DNA of 64,000 bases from Gaertneriomyces semiglobifer (lineage: Eukaryota; Chytridiomycota; Chytridiomycetes; Spizellomycetales; Spizellomycetaceae): positions 620,001 through 684,000 of the forward strand of contig JAHLKF010000003.1 of the NCBI GenBank assembly GCA_025558075.1. Reading direction: 5' to 3'. Positions 45,255 to 57,033 of this stretch are shown here, piece by piece. The notes beneath the pieces were generated by a model that saw only the letters and a program-made list of their open reading frames with translations, had not been told where the DNA came from and made no database searches. The translations under genes were made by a program, and so were the position numbers. The first letter of the stretch is position 1. Each line of letters opens with the position of its first letter.

Positions 45255-46493
45255 CTCGCGTAGGCGTTGTACGATAAAGAATCACGGGGCTGTTGACGGC
45301 TGGCAATGAACTCACAGCAATCAAGGTAATCTAATGCGTATGTATGAGCTTGTTTTTGGTAGCTTTCCACACAGGCTCTTCGGGAGAAGTCGGGACACTT
45401 TGTCAGTGCCAAGCACATAACATTGTCATTGACTTTCACGTCAGAACAGAAGGCCGCTCGCTATAGCTGAATCCTGAGGACGATTACAGTTGGCGAATTC
45501 GTCAGCTAAGGAGTCTCCGATCAGGCAATGCGCGCGAGCAAGTACAACAACTGTATGATGGCTGCTGCTACTCTCTGTGACTGTCTGTATATCGATCGCA
45601 AGTTGTGCTCCCTCACTGCACTCTGCTATTCGTATCTTTCTTTGGACAACTGGTTATGATGTCCTGTATAAGACTCTTCAACGGTTTCAATGTTTGGTCG
45701 TTCGTCGTCGTCGTCGGAATTATGTCAATCAAAAAACGAGGCGTTTCCATTTGACATGACACTCGTCGCAAATGAGGCCATTGTTTTACACAAAAGTTGG
45801 TTTGGTCATGATGGGAACGAAGCAGCAACGGACAGGAACAAACGGGCCTAGCGGACATGCAGGGAAGGAGGAACGTTGTGGAGGAGGCTTCTGAATTCAG
45901 GCGGCCCCTTTAACATGATAGATATGCTGAACTTTGTGAAGCACAGCGACTGTCATAACAGCTCCGCTGGCTTGTCCGTCTACCGCATTGACTGCCTGGC
46001 TTCAACCTGCTTACTCGAAGGTCCTCGCTGGTTTCTGGAGGAGACGGTGATGCGTTGGTAACCCACAGCGTCGCCGTTTTCAATACATAGTCCTTCCCAA
46101 TAAACTTTCCAGGCCAGCAGCGCATCAGACGCCTACAACCAATCTTATCGGACATAGTTAACCCCCCGCTGACGGCCTCATATCCAGCGCCGTCCGGTTC
46201 TGCGAATGTACTTTCCGTTTGCAGCTTCCGTTCGCAACTCAATTGAAACGACGACGGCAACGCGAAACGTATTTTGCTCGGGGACCAGAAGAACCAGCCG
46301 AAGGCACCTCTTTCAACGGCGACGCACTACGACGACGACGATGCTTTCCCGTCTTCTGTTAGGAATCTCCTGGAGGATCCCCTAACTACTTCAATTCCAG
46401 TCTTTGCGGTACTATCCTTACTTCGCGTACTTCCAGGTCCTCTCGCCTACATTCCTCGTTGCTTTGGGAAAGAGCTAACTGGGTCCGAGAACA
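45255..46493. other. Divergent upstream region, MDM34 and channel gene
   Basis: 1.24 kb with only small, non-ATG or overlapping open frames. No coding sequence recognised. Confidence 0.4.
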
Positions 46494-49400
46494 ATGAGTG
46501 CTAACGAGCGACAACCATTGCTCGCGGCAGCCGCTCGCACCGCCAAACCCGCAACAAAGGGTGTGAACCCGTATTGGTCTCCTCAAGGAAAAAAGTGGCT
46601 CAAAAAAGGTGCCGGTCAGCGACGAACACTTAGCCAGAGCTACCTCGACACAAGTGGTGGTAGTGCATCCGATATAGCCGCAGACGACGATAGTCAAGAT
46701 GGAGCAGTAGACGCCGACGACCGAGAATTGAAAGAAGGGAAAAAAGCGTCCTTGCGAGAGCAATGGAGTTACTTTTTGGATGCAACCACCTGGGGTCGCT
46801 GGTACGTACCTGTGCCATTTCACTCAGATCCTGCCCCGAACCTTTGCTTTCGGTTTCTGACTAGACCGCTCCTTGTTCAGGTGGCAAGTCTTTGATGCGG
46901 CATTGAACATCGCTTTTGTCCTCTTATTCATTTACTTGACCACTTACATTACTGCTCCGCCGGGAGGCGACGGGAGCAGACCGCCCCCACCTCCAGACCA
47001 TCTCTTACTCTTCGACATGCTGCTGGCTTTGGCGCTCTTGCTTCAGTGGCTCCCGCGAGTGTATCTATCTCTGGACCCTTACGTCGAGATTTTTACATGG
47101 TTCACATTTATGACGATTTTGGCAACCGTCCCGGTCTTTTGGGCATATGCCGAGACGGATGACAGAAACATGGATTATATGGACGCGAATAGGGTATTGG
47201 CTTTCATGTACCCGTTTCGCTTCTGGCGGATGCATTTGAGTGCCATGAGGGTTCTAGCGCCAAGGTGGGATATGGACTAACGGGCAACAACGTCGCCAAT
47301 CGCGAGTAGCTGACTGACTTCTTTGACCCAGCAAAACGGTTGCGTTGAACGTATCGCCCATTACTCAAAAGGCGCTCAAGTTGGGACTTTCCATTTTCAA
47401 CACACTACTGACCGTGACCGCCTGGGTCCACATTTGCCTTTATATTATTCAGGTATGCCTTGATGTGCCACCGAGTTTGGCCATTATGTGCAATAACATC
47501 GATTGGGTTTTTAGGCATACTACACCTTGAGCTTCTTCGATGTGCTCTACACCATCTTCGTCTCATCGACTTCCGGTCTGAGCACTCAGATTATTCCGGA
47601 TAACCCGTTCAGTCGACTTGTCATTATGGTATGTTTTCAAACACGTTGATCAGGTACCTTTGTTAAGTGATTGACGCGCCATCATGTCACGCAGTACGTG
47701 ATGATTGTCGGGGCCATCCACGTCCCTACAAACCTGGCCGAGCTGCTTTCTCTCATACGAAACAAATCCAAATACGACAAACCGTATTCTGCGAACAACA
47801 GCTCACACGTCCTCATTGTGGGCAATTTTGAGATCCCATCTCTGCGGGATTTCCTTTGGGAGTTTTTCTGTGAGGTATTGTGGTCGTGATAAGCGATGGT
47901 GTGTGGCGGGGATTACTTCTTACTCAGCGTGGTGTATTATTTAGGACCATGGCCCGAAGACGATGACGGCCCAGGTTGTTCTTCTTAACGAAAGCGAGCC
48001 CTCCGAAGAGCTTGAGTCCTTGCTCTCTGACCCGATGTACCTCAAGCGGGTACGGTATGTCAAAGGTAGTCCCTTATCGTTTCGCAGCCTGCACCGGGCA
48101 AAGGCACACACTGCGAAGGCGTGTTTCGTGCTTGCGAGCCGGTTCTCCGGGAGACCAGCAATCGAAGAAGATGCTGAGACAGTTATGACAGCTTTGGTGA
48201 GTCTTTAACATGCACTTGATCAGTCAAAGCGTTTTGCAGTCGACCTGACCTTGGAGATCACAGGCAATCAAGAAATTCTACAGGAAGGCAAACATCTTTG
48301 CCCAAGTCATCTCTCCGGGAAGCAAAATGCATTTTCAGATTCTATGTAAGTCCAAGGTCCTTGTGATTCACGTGCTATTTTCTGCTAACTCATACTGCCT
48401 CTCAAGCCGACCATCTCTTGTGCATCGACGAATTCAAGCTGGGTATGCTGGCCCAGAATTGCTTGGCACCCGGATTCTCAACTATGTTGTACCTATTGAC
48501 CACGTCGATTCCCGCGGCAACGAAGAAGGAGTTGAAGACAAAGGCCAAATTTGCGCCGTGGATAGATGAGTATGCGGACGGAGCTGAGATGGAAATTTAC
48601 GCAGTAGGTGCTTTTTCGTTGAGTACGGTTGAGTGTTGGCTTACCGTATCAAACGTGCAGGTCCGTCTTTCCCACATCTACGCCGGAATGTCCTTCCCGG
48701 AGGTAGCTGAACGCATTTATCTGACTCACTCAGCCATTATTTTTGCTGTCGGTTTTCAAAAGGATCCGCAGGACACTGAACCCTTCATTGTGATGAATCC
48801 TCAAGACTACATGTTCAATGGCGGAGAAACAGCATACCTGATCACCACTCAGAGTAAAGTGGCGGATACCATTGGAGCTGAAGGAGTAGTGTTCAGCAGC
48901 GTACCGTCCTTTGACGAACATGTTTCGGACGTTCAGGCGGATGTTGAGTTAGCCAGCGACGGCGGTTGTTCGAGTGTGAATCATGCGGAAGCGCGGGGAG
49001 AGTCGACTGCGTCTTCCTCCTCGACTTTACAAGGCTCGCCCGACCAGAGCATTGCCACTGATGAGCTCATCACGTTTGGCACCAAACACCGTTCTACGAC
49101 CATCTTGGACGCAGAACCCAGTGCGCACTCCTCCAAGACTACATCATCGTTGCCCAGCAATGTCTGTGATCACATCCTGATTTGCACGCTGGAGCCAAGT
49201 TTCCCGCAGAATCTGGCTTTCTTCATCGCGCCGTACCGTCACAAGGAGAGGAAGTCTATCGTCATATTGTGTCCCGAAGGGCCGGACGAGGAAACATGGA
49301 CTAAACTGGCGGCGTTTAGGGACGTACATTTCGTCATTGGAACGCCATTGCACCGTAAAGATTTGCAGCGGGCGAAGGTTGAAAAGGCCTCAAGGGCTGT

Positions 49401-50295
49401 TATTTTGGCCAACGCGTTAGAGCAAAAGTAAGTCCGTCAGTTCTACAACAGTGGTGTGAGAAGTCATGCGTCGCCTAACAGATTCTTTTCAATAGCATTG
49501 CAAGTCGGGCTGCTGACTCACAAGCCCTTCTCGCTATCCTCAATATTCAGGCCTTGACCACCTTAGTTACTTCGGACGCTGCTAGCCCCACAGGGCCCTC
49601 ACGTCCCGAAATTTTCACAATGGTTGAATTCATTCATCCTGAGAACGCAAAGTTCATTGGAAACGGGGAAAAGTATTACAGAGACGGGGTGCAAGGTCGG
49701 TCAGCCCTTTCTTCTTACTGAATTGCTCAATACTGACTGGATGCTCTTTCACCTTGAAAGGACACAACCTAATGCCCTGCTTCGTGGGAGGTCATGTCTT
49801 TTTCAACGCGATGTTCTCGTCACTTTTGTGCCAAACCTATTACAATCCGCATTTGCTGCACGTTCTCAAGGTAGTATTTTTTTTCTCACTTTCAGTCGTC
49901 AATGACATGCTGCTGACTTTGGGCGTCACTAGCATTTCATATTTAACGGAACTCACTCATTACCTGCCTCCACGCCATCGGCGCGCCCGAGCTGGCTTCC
50001 TTCTTTCCCGTTTCAGTCGTCTCTCCCACATCAACCGACCGACCCAGATCTGCCTTACCAGACCCACAGCAACCTTCATCAAATCGCCGTTCCCGCCGAG
50101 TATGTCAACTCCACGTATGCTTCATTATGGGTGTGGCTCCTCCGCAGAAAGGTTCTTGCGTTAGGATTGTATAGAAGGACGGTGGAAAGTGGCCTGTGGG
50201 TGAAGTATGTTGTTGTGAATCCGGGACATGCGGTAAGACTGAGGGAAGATGATCGGGTGTTTGTCTTTATGGCCGGAAATGGGGTGGTAGAGTAG
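46494..50295 (+). CDS. BK/Slo-like channel with RCK-like cytoplasmic region and altered selectivity filter
   Basis: Twelve exons: 46494-46801, 46881-47264, 47332-47452, 47515-47628, 47695-47874, 47945-48196, 48264-48345, 48407-48603, 48661-49427, 49496-49695, 49761-49870 and 49933-50295. The product is 1025 aa and every phase joins. S1-S6 are visible, and S4 carries RVLAF..PFRFWRMHLSAMR. The first RCK-like region starts VLIVGNFEIPSLRDFLWEFFCED and includes ADHLLCIDEFKLGMLAQNCLAPGFSTML. The second starts ICTLEPSFPQNLAFFIAPYR and ends MVEFIHPENAKFI and GGHVFFNAMFSSLLCQTYYNP, typical of BK. At the pore, residues 290-295 read TSGLST where K+ channels have TVGYGD. There is no Asp-rich calcium bowl and no obvious extra S0 helix. 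Confidence 0.85.
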
Positions 50296-50498
50296 GGAGA
50301 ACTTTAGACTCGGCTAGTAAAGTTAGAAAGACCTTTGTAGATCTAAGACCAGGGTCGCCAAATGTATCACATTCGCTTAATGAAACAGTGAAGAGTGGCC
50401 GTTCTATTCGGAAGCAGATTAAGGCGATGATGCTGAATGCTTAATGGAAATGTTCCTTTTCGAAACAAAACAAAATAGAAAGTTCAAAAAAATACAAG

Positions 50499-50572
50499 TA
50501 CTCTCGCGCAGACTCGAACTGCGGACCTTCTGCGTGTGAAGCAGATGTGATAACCAGCTACACCACAAGAGC
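50499..50572 (-). tRNA. tRNA-Val (CAC)
   Basis: A 74-base cloverleaf read on the minus strand. The anticodon stem TCTGC/GCAGA encloses loop TTCACAC with anticodon CAC. The T arm is CGCAG-TTCGAGT-CTGCG. The acceptor stem GCTCTTG/CGAGAGT has a G-U first pair. There is no intron, and a T run follows downstream as Pol III terminator. Confidence 0.93.
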
Positions 50573-56809: not shown

Positions 56810-56883
56810 GCTCCCGTGGTTTAGTTGGTCATAACGTCTGCTTCACACGCAGAAGGTCCGCAGTTCGAATCTGCGCGGGAGTA
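56810..56883 (+). tRNA. tRNA-Val (CAC)
   Basis: A 74-base cloverleaf with the same anticodon arm and T arm as the copy at 50.5 kb, and acceptor stem GCTCCCG/CGGGAGT with a first G-U pair. TATAAAA lies immediately upstream and CTTTTT immediately downstream (Pol III terminator). Confidence 0.94.
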
Positions 56884-57033
56884 CTTTTTCTACCATTTCC
56901 AGATTGCTTGCACGTCTTATCTATAAGATGGCAACGTTCGGGTCAAGATTCTTTTCCCAACGTTCGCAGCCATGTTTTTACAAGCGCTTTTTAGTCCAGG
57001 CAACTCGTATGTGACTCCTGTTGTTGCTCCGTG

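Follow-up and report, generated by a model that had tools for sequence, protein, structure and literature searches.

A Slo-type channel gene of Gaertneriomyces semiglobifer carries, at the place of the selectivity filter, a sequence that is not that of a K+ channel. The gene lies within a 64,000-nucleotide stretch of contig JAHLKF010000003.1 (positions 620,001 to 684,000, forward strand; hereafter the window), part of a genome assembly of 20.86 Mb in 66 contigs, and the pore of its product reads STSGLSTQIIPDN where K+ channels carry TVGYGD. Slo channels are textbook K+-selective Ca2+ sensors. Sequence comparison indicates that this protein probably functions as a channel for other cations or a mixture of them and is not a broken K+ channel, and on balance we favour an old Slo subfamily that would be gated by Ca2+ at RCK1 and would pass cations without K+ selectivity. 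In this subfamily the K+ filter appears to have been swapped for a conserved loop, T-S-G-L-S-T-x-[IL]-x-x-D. The channel would assemble as a tetramer with a BK-like RCK gating ring and open when Ca2+ occupies the RCK1 site (D370, E543), the open pore admitting monovalent cations with little or no discrimination between K+ and Na+, and perhaps some Ca2+. If so, the family is a natural experiment in selectivity change within one scaffold, and the sign of the response would be reversed, a rise in cytosolic Ca2+ depolarising the cell, contrary to the action of BK.

The family set comprised 29 proteins, that of the window and 28 TSG-type relatives from two protein searches. Both searches were word-based and of limited reach, scoring only candidates that shared most words, and the taxa given are those found, which says nothing firm on Dikarya, Mucoromycota or Rozella. 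The named carriers are chytrids, Blastocladiella, Allomyces and Paraphysoderma (Blastocladiomycota), Dispira and Dimargaris (Dimargaritales), and one Partr_v1 protein. A passage of PMC6299283 gives Partr_v1 as the proteome, based on transcriptome data, of the aphelid Paraphelidium tribonemae. The motif, or a sequence close to it, was present in 26 of the 29 proteins, 19 of them with exactly TSGLST; the variants were SSGLST, TSGSAS, TSGTTR, TSGLNT, TSGQNA, TNGLDT and TTGLST. The remaining three are deposited models that are frame-odd at the filter (P0006), start too late (P0019) or have no pore (P0030). The pattern T-x-G-[YFLM]-G, searched for anywhere in the protein, occurred in none of the 29, the window protein included, which thus has no second filter of that form, and T-x-G-[YF]-G-[DN], the K+-channel filter, was not found in the TSG family. 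Four GYG-type proteins (P0021-P0023, P0032) came from the same searches.

Columns were counted over 25 rows, a few near-duplicates among them, with P0006, P0017, P0019 and P0030 set aside (P0017 does have the motif). T290 was found in 24 rows, S291 in 23, G292 in 25, L293 in 22, S294 in 20 and T295 in 22, while D300 at the outer mouth and P320 in S6 were invariant. Residues 286-295 had the lowest mean entropy of the 15 stretches measured (0.80 bits), followed by S6 (1.22 bits). Purifying selection on an alternative filter would be expected to produce such a pattern, and decay, which a preliminary description of the sequence had entertained, is rejected because the motif is kept in 26 of 29 proteins and forms the least variable stretch. 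That description had also held the protein not to be a conventional K+ channel, and the filter lends this view support, the lack of GYG arguing against K+ selectivity. At least five deposited members (P0003, P0012, P0014, P0015 and P0017) are named calcium-activated or BK potassium channels, names that the filter does not support. In P0028 (Quaeritorhiza) and P0024 (Entophlyctis) a TSG-type Slo is joined to an unrelated N-terminal half, of dehydrogenase/ferrochelatase type by name and Pfam list in P0028; both are probably merged gene models.

The gene model has 11 introns, each with GT-AG borders, and splicing gives an uninterrupted frame of 1025 residues. The filter lies in one continuous exon of 114 bases in phase 0, with borders reading ...ttttag then GCA... 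and ...ATG then gtatgt, as the preliminary description had it; its view that mis-splicing was unlikely is strengthened by the junctions, the open frame and the identical filter of P0001, the separately deposited protein of the sister strain Gaertneriomyces sp. JEL0708. P0001 is equal in length and 97% identical to the window protein; of the 35 differences, 12 are concentrated in the 100 residues of the linker, where they lie most densely, with one in the 62 residues of pore and S6 and none in the filter. When 46401-50400 is read in its three forward frames, G-x-G strings lie at 47025, 47193, 47268 and 48048, one of them intronic and three in a non-coding frame. The features of the gene are as follows.

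46494..50295, forward strand: 12-exon gene for 1025 residues, with GT-AG junctions and an open frame; length equal to P0001
46494-46801, 46881-47264, 47332-47452, 47515-47628, 47695-47874 and 47945-48196, forward strand: exons 1-6
48264-48345, 48407-48603, 48661-49427, 49496-49695, 49761-49870 and 49933-50295, forward strand: exons 7-12
46788..47446, forward strand: helices S1-S5, residues 99-124, 142-165, 176-193, 209-227 and 240-269 (AlphaFold model of P0001)
47533..47574, forward strand: pore helix, residues 278-291 (same model)
47569..47586, forward strand: TSGLST, residues 290-295, at the selectivity-filter position (exon structure and family alignment)
47599..47601, forward strand: D300, outer-mouth Asp (alignment)
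47605..47763, forward strand: S6, residues 302-332, split by the intron 47629-47694 (model and alignment)
Within S6, forward strand: P320, and E325, equivalent to BK E321 (alignment)
47797..48299, forward strand: RCK1 N-lobe, PF22614, residues 344-465 (Pfam)
47945..47947, forward strand: D370, equivalent to BK D367, RCK1 Ca2+ ligand (alignment)
48409..48750, forward strand: BK_channel_a domain, PF03493, residues 482-576 (Pfam)
48592..48594, forward strand: E543, equivalent to BK E535, RCK1 Ca2+ ligand (alignment)
49159..50292, forward strand: RCK2 and C-terminus, residues 713-1025 (Pfam and model)
49644..49762, forward strand: place of the calcium bowl, residues 852-869, NAKFIGNGEKYYRDGVQG, with no bowl (BK alignment)
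49832..49849, forward strand: QTYYNP, residues 893-898, opposite the ATYFND stretch of BK RCK2 (alignment)

Pfam recognised PF22614 in two stretches (183.8 bits) and PF03493 (88 bits), in agreement with the two RCK blocks described before. The AlphaFold model, a monomer of P0001, has a re-entrant pore helix and S1-S6, the architecture of Slo with tandem RCK domains, and it matches Slo1 and Slo2 in structure over about residues 82-1021. No S0 helix is present in the model, where only a helix at 87-97 precedes S1; residues 1-82 have a predicted local distance difference test score (pLDDT) below 50 and contain no long hydrophobic stretch in the sequence. Relative to the Slo family (Slo1/BK, Slo2, Slo3), the window protein shares the two Slo-like_RCK matches, BK_channel_a, the fold and the RCK1 ligands D367/E535, but lacks the GYG filter, the calcium bowl, the Mg2+ pair E374/E399, S0 in the model and D186 of S3.

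Residues of known function were compared by alignment to human BK, using 25 of the 29 TSG rows and 20 of the 53 canonical rows. In BK, cations are drawn in by the acidic ring of S6 at E321. Of 25 TSG rows, 23 have E or D at this inner position; the 20 canonical chytrid Slo checked all have K or R there, the charge at the inner mouth being reversed in the canonical channel itself. The Ca2+ ligands of BK RCK1 are D367 and E535 according to a passage of PMC4319557, and in the TSG family these are D in 25 of 25 rows and E in 23 of 23, two more being gapped at the latter; canonical paralogues have Q (18) or H (2) at E535. Together, conserved acidic positions at both pore mouths and the retained RCK1 ligands are the grounds for proposing a conducting, Ca2+-gated cation pore, and the earlier suggestion of a channel for other ions is favoured to that extent. 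At the place of the calcium bowl, BK reads QFLDQDDDDDPD and the window protein KFIGNGEKYYRD; the bowl is absent, as had been suspected, and nowhere in the protein do as many as four D/E residues follow one another. The Mg2+ site residues E374/E399 are also lost. The reported BK-style S4 is only partly borne out: the R213 equivalent is R in all but one of 21 rows, that one having K, but R207 and R210 are not kept. The comparison of voltage residues covered R167, D186 and R213, with D153 outside it: R167 is R or K in 19 of 22 rows, and all 22 have T or S in place of D186 in S3. Voltage sensing appears doubtful because D186 is lost throughout, despite the retention of R213 and R167.

The filter was aligned to that of K+ channels in two registers, and GYG appears in neither. 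HMMER placed TSGL opposite TVGY, and MAFFT, with canonical relatives and BK, placed SGLSTQ opposite TVGYGD without gaps. Pore helices of equal length in two AlphaFold models (278-291 and 336-349) favour the gapless SGLSTQ/TVGYGD register; the MAFFT and model registers are not independent, rows of both types having been co-aligned for the models.

The genome also holds a canonical paralogue (contig C5, locus L015, 2633-5989, reverse strand), a single open frame of 1118 residues with the filter STIGFGD, 100% identical to the deposited G. semiglobifer protein P0033. This stretch has no introns, against 11 in the window gene. TIGFGD was found in 48 of 48 canonical rows counted, from 53 found; those set aside were P0083 (STIGFGD), P0078 (TIGFGD) and P0082, P0084 and P0085, which start beyond the filter. 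Canonical and TSG-type proteins have their architecture in common, and the S6 proline is present in 47 of 47 ungapped canonical rows. P0033 and P0001 are 24% identical, and the two types 20-25% identical over the alignment. Both types occur by name in 13 species, this genome included; in one of these, Borealophlyctis, the filter region of the TSG-type model is irregular. No canonical Slo was listed for the Blastocladiomycota, Dimargaritales or aphelid carriers within the limited reach of the word-based search. A tree was built from the S6-RCK1-BK_a columns without the filter, with 25 of 29 TSG rows, 21 of 53 canonical rows, two animal BK segments and four GYG-type rows, and was rooted at the midpoint. 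A branch at 82/80, which carried no star, had the TSG proteins to one side, the canonical group formed at 100/100 on a long branch (2.2), and a 99/96 split divided the two types jointly from animal BK and the rows of GYG type. P0023 and P0032 drew a program warning about the meeting of long branches. Support for the TSG branch is not strong, and with a midpoint root the tree does not fix the order of the groups.

Several points weigh against a conducting, Ca2+-gated cation channel. The pore could likewise persist in a protein retained as a sensor or scaffold, and seven of the 26 motif-bearing proteins differ within the six filter residues. The filter block has a mean pLDDT of 68 in a model that is a monomer, and with a one-residue doubt over the register no ion site can be assigned. 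All 20 canonical paralogues checked have D367 as well, the site alone thus not being telling; the position of R514, which in BK serves as a ligand through its main chain, holds I, V, M or F in the TSG family; and the two exceptions at E321 are Q and N.

Other explanations account for some of these observations. The co-occurrence of both types would suit a silent or dominant subunit that conducts nothing alone but joins the canonical TIGFGD Slo and alters or blocks its current, close to the non-conducting sensor or dominant partner that the preliminary description had proposed. We consider this unlikely given the low identity between the two types, the lack of a canonical partner listed by the word-based search, limited as it was, for Allomyces, Blastocladiella, Paraphysoderma, Dispira, Dimargaris and Paraphelidium, and the retention of acidic pore-mouth positions that such a subunit would not need. 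Decay or mis-annotation could explain the three deposited models that are broken or without a pore, but is exceedingly improbable for a motif that is the family's most conserved stretch, in an open frame with GT-AG junctions and with one family member derived from a transcriptome. Decay and mis-splicing were both rejected on the conservation of the filter and its unchanged state in the sister strain.

The pore might instead have kept its K+ selectivity by means of an unusual backbone filter of the kind seen in Trk/Ktr-type transporters, a proposal we find very doubtful. With a 14-column profile, loop 3 of Escherichia coli TrkH, TTAGFTT, was the best of 470 TrkH windows, its Gly lying under G292, but an unrelated stretch of the canonical paralogue came close, at 7.4 bits to the loop's 8.2; with 24 columns this loop ranked first in TrkH at a score below zero, and with 39 columns third. 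Pfam found no TrkH at E values up to 10 in four family pores. The likeness to the TrkH loop may be due to chance, and homology with Trk was rejected, the profiles and Pfam leaving the analogy at chance level. Ion_trans_2 matched three of the four family pores weakly, the window's not at all, and PF02386 (TrkH) had no match in the window protein by Pfam or in this genome by exon-level search.

The closest precedent is plant CASTOR/POLLUX. Passages of PMC6697748 report that CASTOR is RCK-gated, lacks TVGYG, conducts Ca2+, has a PNa/PK of about 2, and lost activity in the D265N mutant. CASTOR/POLLUX/DMI1 share the tandem-RCK gating-ring fold, but differ in the filter AD[SA]GNHA, which the TSG family does not have, and in Ca2+ sites, and CASTOR has four predicted transmembrane segments against six in the model of the window protein. 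A channel of this kind for Ca2+ release or entry, either selective for Ca2+ or highly permeable to it, seems quite unlikely here. The filter residue D265 of CASTOR is Thr in 24 of 25 TSG rows by hand alignment on the Gly, for which reason mixed-cation conduction is ranked above Ca2+ selectivity, and the gating-ring Ca2+ sites differ between BK and CASTOR (as a passage of PMC6697748 indicates). Filters in the CNG/NaK/HCN group include TIGET and TVGDG. CNG channels are non-selective, and CNG, NaK and HCN are relatives of K+ channels with non-selective or weakly selective filters (passages of PMC13088309), although with other gating ligands. No prior description of a TSG-type Slo family was found among the papers listed from an open-access library, most subscription journals lying outside it.

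A passage of PMC4685582 on Spizellomyces raises the question of how the flagellum is controlled in a flagellated chytrid without Cav channels, for which the TSG-type channel would be a candidate. It is a rather improbable extension of this idea that a Slo channel took up a conserved Ca2+- or mixed-cation filter before aphelids and fungi split, and that in zoosporic fungi without voltage-gated Ca2+ channels its Ca2+-gated, regenerative inward current replaces them in flagellar and excitability control of zoospores. An exon-level search of this genome with PF00520 gave six matches in six separate places and no four-repeat Ion_trans cluster; there is no obvious Cav/Nav/NALCN-type channel in the genome, matching what that passage says of Spizellomyces.

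Apart from the channel gene, two tRNA-Val(CAC) genes were found in the window, one just downstream of it (50498-50572, reverse strand) and one at 56810-56884 (forward strand), and a peptidase M28 match (PF04389; 50915-51586, reverse strand) adjoins the channel gene.
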